From NCBI GenBank assembly GCA_024762835.1, contig JANTGP010000013.1, positions 1 through 35,428 on the forward strand: DNA of 35,428 nucleotides, read 5' to 3'. Source of the stretch: Bacteroidota bacterium (GTDB lineage Bacteria > Bacteroidota > Bacteroidia > Bacteroidales > M50B96). Below the pieces are notes generated by a model. It had not been told where the DNA came from. It worked only from the letters and a program-made list of their open reading frames with translations, and ran no database searches. Below, one piece after another: positions 12,503 to 26,051 of this stretch; within the stretch, counting starts at the first letter, position 1, and every line of letters starts with the position of its first letter. Both the position numbers and the translations under genes were made by a program.

Positions 12503-13198
12503 ATGGAAAAGAAGAAATCAAACAAAGCAGAGCTTGAAACAAAACGTAAATTATTCTTACAACTTGGATTTATTATTACTCTTGCTTTAATAATAATGGC
12601 ATTTGAATGGAGCACAGAGGAATCAGAAACTCTGATATTATCAAATAATGGTAATATCGAAATTGAAGAAGACTTAGATAATATAATTCAGAAAGATATA
12701 AAACTTATTAAACCAATACCAAAATTACAACTTACAGATGTTATTAACATGGTTACCGATGATGTGATTATTGATGATGATTTAGAGTTCTCTTCAGAAG
12801 ATGACCAGGATAATAAAATGGAAGTAAATTTTACACTTGACGATGAAGAAGGGGATAACACACCTTTTATATTGGTTGAAAATATGCCTATTTTTCGTCC
12901 TAAGATAAACACCACCGAGGAAGAAGGAAAGATAGACCTTCATAGATTTGTTGCCAAACAGGTAAAATACCCTAAAATGGCAGTTGAAGCAAACCTGCAA
13001 GGAAAAGTATATGTAACTTTTGTTGTAAACAAAAAAGGAGAAGTTACCGATGTAAAAGTAGCAAGAGGCGACTATCCTATTCTTAATAATGAAGCAATAA
13101 GAGTTGTAAAGAATCTTCCAAAATTCAGCCCGGGAAAACAACGGGGAAAAGCCGTCAACGTTCAATATAATGTTGCAATCAATTTTAAGTTGTCTTAA
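12503..13198 (+). CDS. Energy transducer TonB
   Basis: N-terminal TM and C-terminal VKYPKMAVEANLQGKVYVTFVVNKKGEVTDVKV...FSPGKQRGKAVNVQYNVAINFKL TonB-C domain. Confidence 0.92.
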   Translation: MEKKKSNKAELETKRKLFLQLGFIITLALIIMAFEWSTEESETLILSNNGNIEIEEDLDNIIQKDIKLIKPIPKLQLTDVINMVTDDVIIDDDLEFSSEDDQDNKMEVNFTLDDEEGDNTPFILVENMPIFRPKINTTEEEGKIDLHRFVAKQVKYPKMAVEANLQGKVYVTFVVNKKGEVTDVKVARGDYPILNNEAIRVVKNLPKFSPGKQRGKAVNVQYNVAINFKLS

Positions 13199-17139: not shown

Positions 17140-18825
17140 CTATAAATAAAATCTAAAACCGGCATTAAGACCAATAGCATTTGCCTTTAATCCCACAGCA
17201 TGACTATTGTCAAACATAGAATTCAGATTACCTCTGAAATACGGTTCGATATAAATACCCATATATTTCTCAAGTTTGATATACATATTAATACTTGCCA
17301 GCCAGCTTATATTTGTTTTTAAGAAGGGTAAAGAGTTTTTATCAAAGTCAATAACTGATTTGTTGTCGACAAGTGAAAAACTTTTGCCCTTAGCATTTAA
17401 TAATATTCCTATATTACCACCAAGTTTTCCTGTTAAAGTGAGCTTTTTGCTATCATAAAAACTATATCCAAACATTAGAGGAATATTTAAATAGGTATAT
17501 TTGTTTCTGATATTATAATTCTTAGTACTGTTGTTACTTTCGGTTTGATATACCTGCGATGAGTCATACACCATTATTATACTGTCAATAATCATGGGTA
17601 CATACACAAAAAATGTATCTCCGTTAAGGGTATCAATCTGAAACTGATAACCAACTGTATCAAAGCTATGAGTATATCCAAGAGGTGTGTATTCCCAGAA
17701 AGAAGCTGTTGTATCGATTGTGTTTATTTCTTCGGTGTAATTAAAGTTCTCATTTAATTGCAAATAAGAAATTCCTGTTTGAAATTTCCATTTATCAAAA
17801 TCGCAGGTAACATTAGCTCCTAAAGAATAAGACATTGCCAGGGATGTTGAGTTTGTAAGCATTATACCAAGTGTGTCAGTATTTGTATTATAATTGAAAG
17901 AGCTGTTTTCAATACCAGTAAAAATACCAAGCGATAAACCATCAAACAGGCTTTTCTTTTTCTTTTTGTGTTTCTTATCCGGCTCTTTATACCTTATTGT
18001 ATCATAAACGGCAACAGTATCAACATAAAGCACAGTGTCATTAATTGTTACAATTACTGTATCGTAGAAAGTTTCATTCACTTTATTCAATTCCTTATCG
18101 GGATTTGAAATATCATCATTCAAATTCGAGTTACCATTTACGGTTTCTTCATTATTTCCCATAAGGATATTCTCAGATTCAATATCAGCAGACTTAAGTT
18201 GTGAGTTTACAATTGATTGTTTATTCAATTTAGATTTTTGAGTATTGACTATTGCGTCTTTCTTATTTATTTTTCCCTTTGGCTCAATTGAAGATTTATT
18301 AGCTTTTTTGATATTTGGCTTATTAACTATCTTCGATTTAGAATTATCTATAACAGTTTCCTTGCTTAATGAATTATTTGCAAGTGATCGTTTTTTGGAT
18401 TTGTCACTATTCGATTTTACAATAAAATTATTCGTATTATTTTCATTTATAGAATTGAGATTTTTGTTTTTTATTACTCTGTTTATCTTAGTGTTATTAT
18501 TGCTTGAAGGTAATTTGTAATAATTATTTTTATACGATAACCAATCCATTGAATCAATTTCTCTTGTCTGTTGAACTTTTAGGCTCTCATTGTAGTTTTT
18601 TGTATTTTCTGCTTTATCAGTAAAAACAGTAATACCTGAGACAATAATTGCAGCAGTAATAATAGCAGCATAATAAACATTAAAGCTATTTATGCTAAAA
18701 GCCAAAAAGCTTTTAAGCCACAGCTTATGTTTAATACTATTCCATACAGAAGCAGAAGGCGTTGAAACATAACCTTCAAAACTGTCTTTGAATAAATTCC
18801 CTATGTCATTAATTTCGTTTCTCAT
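17140..18825 (-). CDS. Putative dual-membrane-spanning ECF regulator: cytoplasmic N-terminus, TM helix, long periplasmic linker, C-terminal outer-membrane beta-barrel
   Basis: MRNEINDIGNLFKDSFEGYVSTPSASVWNSI N-terminus, single TM FNVYYAAIITAAIIVSGITVF, about 220-aa Asn/Lys/Ser-rich linker, PorT-like barrel ending NAGFRFYL; directly follows an ECF sigma gene. Confidence 0.75.
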   Translation of the reverse strand: MRNEINDIGNLFKDSFEGYVSTPSASVWNSIKHKLWLKSFLAFSINSFNVYYAAIITAAIIVSGITVFTDKAENTKNYNESLKVQQTREIDSMDWLSYKNNYYKLPSSNNNTKINRVIKNKNLNSINENNTNNFIVKSNSDKSKKRSLANNSLSKETVIDNSKSKIVNKPNIKKANKSSIEPKGKINKKDAIVNTQKSKLNKQSIVNSQLKSADIESENILMGNNEETVNGNSNLNDDISNPDKELNKVNETFYDTVIVTINDTVLYVDTVAVYDTIRYKEPDKKHKKKKKSLFDGLSLGIFTGIENSSFNYNTNTDTLGIMLTNSTSLAMSYSLGANVTCDFDKWKFQTGISYLQLNENFNYTEEINTIDTTASFWEYTPLGYTHSFDTVGYQFQIDTLNGDTFFVYVPMIIDSIIMVYDSSQVYQTESNNSTKNYNIRNKYTYLNIPLMFGYSFYDSKKLTLTGKLGGNIGILLNAKGKSFSLVDNKSVIDFDKNSLPFLKTNISWLASINMYIKLEKYMGIYIEPYFRGNLNSMFDNSHAVGLKANAIGLNAGFRFYL

Positions 18826-18885
18826 TTTATTTATTTCATGTGTTGCAAACAATGCACACATAGCTGTTCCGGCAGCTATATGTAC

Positions 18886-19434
18886 TTAGCTGCCTCTAAT
18901 CTTATTTAATTCTATGAGTTTCTGTTGTATTAGTTTTCGAGCTCTCGAATATTGCGATTTTGATGTACTAATATCAATATTCAACATCTCGGCAATCTCT
19001 TTGTGTTTATAACCTTCAATAGCAAACAAGTTAAAAACTATTTGATAACCTGCCGGCAAAGCCCTGATAACATCCAGCAACTCATTATGTGTAAATTCTG
19101 CTTCGGTGTATGAATTGTTTACAATATTTGTCTCTCTAATATCATTAATATCATTCTGATATGCATGTTTGAGATTTTTTTTGTAAATTGTGATAGCAGT
19201 ATTTACAGCAATTCGTTTCATCCAACCTTCAAAAGAACCTTTGTCTTCAAATTGTCCAAGGCTTTTGTAAATTTTAATGAAAACTTCTTGTAAAACGTCT
19301 TCTGCCTCAGAACGATCTTTAGTATATCTCATACAAACTCCCAATAATATATGCGAGTAGCTATCAAATAACTTCTTCTGTGCTTTTTTATCATTGTTTA
19401 AGCATCCTTGTATTAACTGTTTTTCAGTTTGCAT
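18886..19434 (-). CDS. RNA polymerase ECF sigma factor
   Basis: Sigma2 CMRYTKDRSEAEDVLQEVFIKIYKSLGQFEDKGSFEGWMKRIAVN and sigma4 LPAGYQIVFNLFAIEGYKHKEIAEMLNI. Confidence 0.95.
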   Translation of the reverse strand: MQTEKQLIQGCLNNDKKAQKKLFDSYSHILLGVCMRYTKDRSEAEDVLQEVFIKIYKSLGQFEDKGSFEGWMKRIAVNTAITIYKKNLKHAYQNDINDIRETNIVNNSYTEAEFTHNELLDVIRALPAGYQIVFNLFAIEGYKHKEIAEMLNIDISTSKSQYSRARKLIQQKLIELNKIRGS

Positions 19435-24598: not shown

Positions 24599-25435
24599 CT
24601 AACACTTTGAAAACTTTATTGGTAATGTATATGATACTTTAACTGCCTGACCGGACTGCTTGCCGGGAATCCATCTTGGCAATTTCTTAACAATCTCAAT
24701 AGCAACCTGATCCAAACCTTTCTTTTTCTTTCCAACAATAACAGGATCTGTTATTTCACCTTTTTCATTTATTAAAAATTCCACAAATACTTTTCCGCAC
24801 GAATGAATATTATAGGTATTCTCGGCATATTCAATCTCCTTATTTATTGTTTTGTCCAATGCAACAACACCCCCCGGAAATTCAGGCATCTCTTCGGTAA
24901 AAGTAAATATTTGATTCGAAAAATCCGGCTTATTCATATTATCAAGTGTAAATAATTTCTTTAGATTTATTTCGCTTTTTGCTACTGAAAGATTGTTAAC
25001 CTTCTTATCTTGTTGCATTTGAACGTCTTCCTTTCCGGGACTCGGCGGAAAATAAACTATATTACTATTATTTTCCTCATCAGTAATATTTTCAGCATTT
25101 TGACTATCGCTTTTTAAATTAAATATATAAAATAAGCCTAATATAAAAAGTATAGAAGCAGCAAATGTTGAAAGAATAAAGATTCTGTTTGATTGTTTAG
25201 CTGCTGATGTTTTTTGCCTGGTCTTATCTTTAATTTCATTCTTTATTTCGGAAATATTTAACTCAGAACTTTCGGATAACTTAATGCCATCAATTGCATT
25301 AGCACAAAAATCACAATTCTCAAGATGACTTAAAACATCTTTTAAGTCTTTCTCGCCAAGTGTTTTTGCAATATAGCTTTCAATTGCTTCGCCTGTAAGG
25401 CATCCAAATTCGTTAAATAATCTGCTGTCACTCAT
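24599..25435 (-). CDS. Zinc-finger anti-sigma (ZAS/zf-HC2-like) protein fused to a TonB C-terminal domain
   Basis: HLENCDFC (HxxxCxxC), one TM IFILSTFAASILFILGLFYIF, C-terminal GKVFVEFLINEKGEITDPVIV...WIPGKQSGQAVKVSYTLPIKF; 8-nt overlap with the upstream ECF sigma gene. Confidence 0.85.
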   Translation of the reverse strand: MSDSRLFNEFGCLTGEAIESYIAKTLGEKDLKDVLSHLENCDFCANAIDGIKLSESSELNISEIKNEIKDKTRQKTSAAKQSNRIFILSTFAASILFILGLFYIFNLKSDSQNAENITDEENNSNIVYFPPSPGKEDVQMQQDKKVNNLSVAKSEINLKKLFTLDNMNKPDFSNQIFTFTEEMPEFPGGVVALDKTINKEIEYAENTYNIHSCGKVFVEFLINEKGEITDPVIVGKKKKGLDQVAIEIVKKLPRWIPGKQSGQAVKVSYTLPIKFSKC

Positions 25436-26051
25436 CGTTAAATTCATTTAATTTGCTTAAAGCAATTTGTAAATTTCTTTTCCCGTTCTGGATATAACTT
25501 TTAACTTTTGTTATTTCATATCCGGTAATTTCTACTGTTTCTTTATACGATTTCTGTTGTAGATAAACCAACTCAATACATTTTCGCTGTTCATCATTCA
25601 ACTGCTCAATTGCTCTATATAAACTTTCTTCCTGCTGTTTTTTCGTACCATCAATCTTAAGGGCAAGTTTGTCCTCAGTTTCCATAATCGAAATATTAAT
25701 TCCTCGCTTCGTGTATTCCACATATCTACTATTCTGACTTTGTATACGCTTTTGTTTCAGGCAATAATTTTTGCTTACAATGTACAACCAATTCTTAAAA
25801 TTTTGTACTTCATAAGTTTTCAGATCAACTAATATTGTCTCAAATATTTCCATTACAGCATCCTTACAAGCATCTTCGTTTTTCAGGTATTTCATACAAA
25901 CACCATAAACTAAATGGACAAAAGGGTCAAACAGCTCTCCTATTAGCTCAGTGTTACCACTCTTCTTATATTGCTCAATCAGTTTAACATGGTAAACATT
26001 GGTATTTGAAAAACTATCCTTTCTTTTCTTATTTGAAAACTTTAAAAACAA
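25428..26051 (-). CDS. RNA polymerase ECF-type sigma factor
   Basis: VHLVYGVCMKYLKNEDACKDAVMEIFETIL and LNDEQRKCIELVYLQQKSYKETVEITGYEITKVKSYIQNGKRNLQ. Confidence 0.88.
   Translation of the reverse strand: MFLKFSNKKRKDSFSNTNVYHVKLIEQYKKSGNTELIGELFDPFVHLVYGVCMKYLKNEDACKDAVMEIFETILVDLKTYEVQNFKNWLYIVSKNYCLKQKRIQSQNSRYVEYTKRGINISIMETEDKLALKIDGTKKQQEESLYRAIEQLNDEQRKCIELVYLQQKSYKETVEITGYEITKVKSYIQNGKRNLQIALSKLNEFNDE

Follow-up and report, generated by a model that had tools for sequence, protein, structure and literature searches.

The window analysed here, a 35,428-nt stretch of Bacteroidota DNA, carries an ECF sigma factor gene overlapped by a second gene, and the pair probably represents a sigma factor held by a class I (zinc-type) membrane anti-sigma factor with a periplasmic TonB-fold sensor and freed by proteolysis. 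Class I anti-sigma factors are the known part of this arrangement and the periplasmic module is the new part; the TonB_C-like fusion is not a one-off, recurring in about half of a sizeable sigma family across Bacteroidota. Judged from profile comparisons, the conserved anchor of this family, formed by an anti-sigma domain (ASD) and a transmembrane (TM) helix, carries various exchangeable periplasmic modules, TonB_C among them. Sequence comparison and modelling show the domains of the window pair, their order, the elements of its topology and its family, laid out as follows.

25428–26051 (−): ECF sigma factor gene, 207 aa, TTG start (Pfam Sigma70_r2 and Sigma70_r4_2; TIGR02937)
25428–25435 (−): 8-nt overlap of the sigma stop with the second gene, ATGAGTGA
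24599–25435 (−): gene for the putative membrane-bound anti-sigma factor with C-terminal TonB domain, 278 aa, its ATG inside ATGAGTGA
25274–25435 (−): predicted zinc-type anti-sigma domain, aa 1–54, ligands C12/H37/C41/C44 (alignments, PDB profile matches, zf-HC2 in relatives, model helices)
25115–25183 (−): single predicted TM helix, aa ~85–107 (hydropathy; helix 42–111 in the AlphaFold model)
24911–25114 (−): predicted disordered periplasmic tether, aa ~108–175 (pLDDT <50 for most of 115–164)
24602–24910 (−): predicted TonB C-terminal-domain fold, aa ~176–278 (PF03544; AlphaFold pLDDT >90; Foldseek)

The earlier note had read an ECF sigma factor gene and, overlapping it, a gene for a single protein with an HxxxCxxC N-terminus, one TM helix, a linker and a TonB C-terminal domain, and both parts of that description hold at these positions. 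The sigma factor matches Sigma70_r4_2 (E=6.9e-11) and Sigma70_r2 (E=8.9e-7) in Pfam and scores 61.6 bits with the sigma70-ECF model TIGR02937 (cut-off 42.9); among solved structures, the best match to its family profile is SigW (E=3e-13). In the fusion, the HxxxCxxC motif lies at aa 37–44 and the most hydrophobic 19-mer at aa 85–103, or 89–107 if translation starts at an earlier in-frame ATG at 25447 that would give a 282-aa product. TonB_C (PF03544) reaches 50.4 bits against a cut-off of 24.6.

The N-terminal domain resembles zinc-type anti-sigma domains of solved structure. Its putative ligands C12/H37/C41/C44, an upstream ligand followed by HxxxCxxC, are spaced 25-4-3, as are the zinc ligands His25/His50/Cys54/Cys57 of RslA (PMC2877774). 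On the window protein alone the zf-HC2 model scores 13.9 bits, under its cut-off of 22.2, and 18 of 21 relatives match it at E<=1. A profile built from the N-termini of 21 family members matches the solved domains of RslA (3hug, E=3e-4), DdvA (8rlz, 4e-4), ChrR (2q1z, 0.008) and RsiW (5wuq, 0.4). The window pair is thus like RslA–sigmaL, ChrR–sigmaE and RsiW–SigW in its ASD profile match, in the ligand spacing of RslA and in having SigW as its nearest solved sigma factor; none of RslA, ChrR and RsiW is known to have a TonB-like periplasmic domain. Given the four-ligand spacing, the profile likeness and the adjoining ECF sigma gene expected of a ZAS/ASDI domain, the N-terminus is predicted to bind the sigma factor, and we infer that it binds zinc as well.

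An AlphaFold model computed from an alignment of 25 family members shows short N-terminal helices (15–22 and 28–40), a long helix (42–111) running through the membrane segment, and an alpha-beta-beta-alpha-beta domain at 189–275 with pLDDT >90. Foldseek places the TonB bound to FoxA first among matches to this domain (E=9e-4), followed by free TonB and TonB bound to TbpA, BtuB and FhuA. A zinc-less relative (L209) has the same layout in its AlphaFold model, with matches to TonB, HasB and TolA. Within the window, the domain is homologous to the C-terminal domain of the stand-alone TonB at 12503–13198 (E=2.9e-14, 38% identity), the paralogy proposed in the earlier note, and both TonB strings quoted there are present in the window sequence. 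The two proteins differ elsewhere: the N-terminus and TM helix of the fusion are unrelated to those of the stand-alone TonB, and the canonical TonB motifs are partly lost in fusions.

A search with the fusion protein alone was dominated by ordinary TonB_C proteins; the only relatives it recovered were L008/L079 and L051. Other matches were set aside: most of the 280-aa TonB matches (L022, L029, L035, L039 and L049) have no zinc motif and are other TonB-like proteins, and L081 (Armatimonadetes) is a ZAS/sigma pair with no TonB. Anchoring the survey on the sigma profile worked. Run on 148 genomes from the order and 347 from the phylum, it gave 58 matches at E<=1e-30 in the order sample, where a gap separates E values of about 1e-30 from 4e-26, and matches in 34 genomes of the phylum sample, all in the same class except one (G120). 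Taking as partner the longest same-strand ORF adjoining each sigma gene yielded 97 sigma/partner pairs, most of them overlapping by a few nucleotides. Forty-five partners have a TonB_C-like C-terminal end, 29 are TPR-type, 11 are short and 12 are of other kinds, several of which resemble eroded TonB domains. In Pfam, 21 of 25 members sampled from the order and 20 of 26 from the phylum match TonB_C at E<=0.01; CarboxypepD_reg-like domains also occur in 13 of the 26 phylum-level members, and one order-level member (L161) has a SusC-type plug. In that protein (L161:2284–3501), the plug segment is followed by a TonB-like domain, so that a single anti-sigma partner combines parts from the TonB side and from the receptor side of their interface. 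TonB_C also serves as a module of other signalling-type proteins in Bacteroidota, found at the C-terminus of two BlaR1/M56-like membrane proteins (L023 and L025; M56 assigned by eye).

With 45 of 97 partners TonB_C-like, the survey rules out that the window fusion is unique, and it does not support the earlier note's reading of the protein as a special case in which the roles of TonB and anti-sigma factor are merged. Full-length homologues, each with its own sigma gene directly upstream, are L079 (=L008), which comes from a Bacteroidales MAG and is 37% identical to the window fusion, L051 (=L179) and L080. HxxxCxxC occurs within the first 110 aa of 42 of the 97 real partners and of 1 of 970 shuffled ones, and none of the 970 shuffled sequences reaches the TonB profile threshold. 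Together, these homologues and the shuffle controls argue that the pairing is not due to chance. In 96 of the 97 partners, the 19-residue stretch of highest hydrophobicity falls within residues 65–148, after the N-terminal domain; in the exception, L245, the partner lies 377 nt off and may be a wrong call.

The anchor itself can be traced across partner types. An ASD+TM profile made from TPR-type partners alone recovers 43 of the 45 TonB-type partners (E=2e-18 for the window fusion). Of 78 TonB-like ORFs, the fusion copies are the only ones that it matches. Together these results point to a conserved anti-sigma anchor with exchangeable modules; those found on it are TonB_C, TPR, CarboxypepD_reg plus TonB_C, and SusC plug plus TonB_C. 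The N-terminus and TM helix of the fusion find no match among the N-termini of stand-alone TonB proteins, and a TonB-type N-terminal TM helix, the part that couples to ExbB/ExbD, is not seen. These profile comparisons place the TM helix in the anti-sigma family rather than with TonB. Nothing therefore points to energising of the protein by ExbB/ExbD, and the energy-transducer role proposed earlier is not supported. A domain-only annotation would call the protein a TonB family protein, and one may ask whether it is an ordinary energy transducer whose N-terminal zinc motif arose by chance, with no anti-sigma role; this is very improbable, given the homology of the ASD to solved anti-sigma domains, the sigma-gene overlap repeated across the 97 pairs, the TPR-bearing paralogues with the same N-terminus and the lack of a match to stand-alone TonB N-termini.

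Mapping the TonB label onto the tree of sigma factors takes no fewer than 15 changes, of which well-supported branches force 5, compared with a mean of 32.5 for shuffled labels. The label is thus clustered, yet has moved or been lost several times; the swaps themselves are weakly resolved, many forks being weak or open. The window's own genome holds a paralogous sigma factor (G000:C140, L020/L178; 41–42% identical) whose partner is a 435-aa anti-sigma-like protein with TPRs replacing TonB_C and with no zinc motif. Elsewhere, a supported sigma clade (SH-aLRT 99; L214, L218, L223, L227, L228, L230, L233, L235, L240 and L245) has partners of ~120 aa that include the TM helix and lack a periplasmic module, that of L245 being doubtful.

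With an anti-sigma-type TM helix, and with the canonical TonB motifs eroded in half of the fusions, the likeliest reading of the protein is an anti-sigma factor whose sensor has a TonB fold, not an energised transducer. The cytoplasmic zinc domain would hold the sigma factor in sequestration, the single TM helix would act as the anchor, and the disordered tether would lead to the periplasmic TonB fold as the sensor. This fold may grip, or be gripped by, a putative envelope partner, our best guess being an outer-membrane TonB-dependent receptor or other outer-membrane protein encoded elsewhere. When the contact is lost or changed, the tether would be exposed to a periplasmic protease and then to an RseP-like site-2 protease, freeing the sigma factor. 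Regulated proteolysis frees sigma factors in the FecR and RseA systems (PMC9249621). The window's genome encodes one M50 site-2-type protease and has three ExbD genes. The tether of the window fusion is only 77 aa, compared with a family median of 185, and would have to be almost fully stretched out to reach the outer membrane.

A sharper and rather doubtful form of this explanation is that the TonB domain docks on the TonB boxes of outer-membrane receptors and that the anti-sigma factor reads receptor occupancy, with or without ExbB/ExbD energy. The receptor complexes that head the Foldseek matches suggest such docking, as do the SusC-type CarboxypepD_reg and plug domains in other family members, which link them to the receptor side, and a divergent stand-alone TonB gene (L079:3451–4152) adjoining the orthologous sigma/anti-sigma-TonB pair of L079. 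Pulling the other way are the origin of the TM helix in the anti-sigma family, the erosion of canonical motifs, [YF]P being kept in just 22 of 45 fusions compared with 68 of 68 stand-alone TonB-like proteins and PGG in 8 of 45 compared with 46 of 68, and the position of the pair away from any receptor gene; the earlier note had seen no adjacent receptor, and the Pfam scans of the window likewise contain no TonB-dependent receptor, and no other partner gene is linked to the pair.

The same eroded motifs fit another reading, also rather doubtful, in which the TonB fold no longer binds receptors and serves as a compact plug in the periplasm or as a redox/folding sensor, keeping the tether out of reach of a site-1 protease until the domain is unfolded or reduced under envelope stress. 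Cysteines C213 and C278 of the window fusion are kept in the 37%-identical L079 and absent from canonical TonB domains; from the topology of the fold, the two could be joined by a disulfide that links the beginning of strand 1 to the end of strand 3. At least two cysteines occur in the TonB domain of 8 of 45 fusions and 2 of 68 stand-alone proteins, at differing positions. The exact pair is present in just two sequences, however, and several fusions (L179/L051 and L149) keep a canonical TonB domain with no such cysteine pairs. As for the anti-sigma factor with a TonB-fold sensor, a wider proposal, which we regard as less likely than the sensor role itself, is that this Bacteroidota family uses TonB_C, SusC-type CarboxypepD_reg and SusC plug domains as sensors that plug into the TonB/receptor interface and so read receptor occupancy or the state of the outer membrane directly, with no linked receptor gene. 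If TonB-like modules do read receptor or envelope state, they would provide a route from the outer membrane to a promoter that needs no such gene.

In the open literature searched, we found no paper linking an anti-sigma factor to TonB_C; an earlier mention is possible, and a TonB-fold periplasmic module on class I anti-sigma factors is apparently undescribed. A 2020 census found only 6% of Bacteroidetes ECF sigma factors adjoining class I ASDs and left the control of the rest open (PMC7406223). The window sigma family almost always has a one-TM partner, and many of these partners have zinc domains or zinc-less relatives of them. The FecI/FecR/FecA system (PMC9249621) resembles the window pair in its ECF sigma factor, its one-TM regulator reaching into the periplasm, and the possible links to a TonB-dependent receptor and RseP cleavage. 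It differs in that the C-terminal domain there is of FecR type, not TonB, and in that a receptor gene is usually linked. No FecR domain was found by Pfam in the product of the second gene, and the window sigma factor scores below the cut-off of TIGR02985, the model for FecI-like sigma factors of Bacteroidetes (56.3 against 126.4 bits).

The genes flanking the window pair, encoding a patatin-like protein and an isochorismatase by Pfam, are not shared with the L079 or L051 loci, and no conserved downstream genes were found in the window's close group, with small clusters only elsewhere. Five TonB-type pairs (L217, L225, L226, L234 and L239) are followed by a related secreted-protein gene, probably DUF2911 by eye, which is a possible regulon lead. 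The promoter regions of five sigma genes, compared by eye, showed no readable pattern.

The closest studied analogues of the window fusion are the Bacteroides Dma anti-sigma factors. Dma1 and Dma2 consist of a sigma-binding domain, a TM helix, a disordered tether and an outer-membrane barrel (PMC13088901), and a sigma/anti-sigma pair of P. vulgatus is induced by the antibacterial protein BcpT (PMC9308784). Like both, the window pair has a sigma gene beside the anti-sigma gene, whose product is predicted to start with a sigma-binding domain, cross the membrane once and continue through a disordered tether to a C-terminal domain in the envelope. As opposed to the beta-barrel of Dma, the window fusion ends in a TonB fold, and it further differs in its zinc-type ASD, its short tether and, probably, its sigma subfamily; Dma proteins have ECF21 sigma factors as cognates. 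A second ECF sigma gene lies in the window at 18886–19434 (−), within 17140–19434 and ~5 kb from the fusion pair, and is followed by a gene for a 573-aa protein with one TM helix (aa 62–80), a long low-complexity tether and a C-terminal region resembling an outer-membrane barrel (PF13568, 25.1 bits, cut-off 27). This protein matches none of the ASD profiles, and 17140–19434 seems to encode a Dma-type dual membrane-spanning anti-sigma pair. Relatives of this pair were found in 41 of 118 genomes of the order, with a second copy in the window's own genome (C135).
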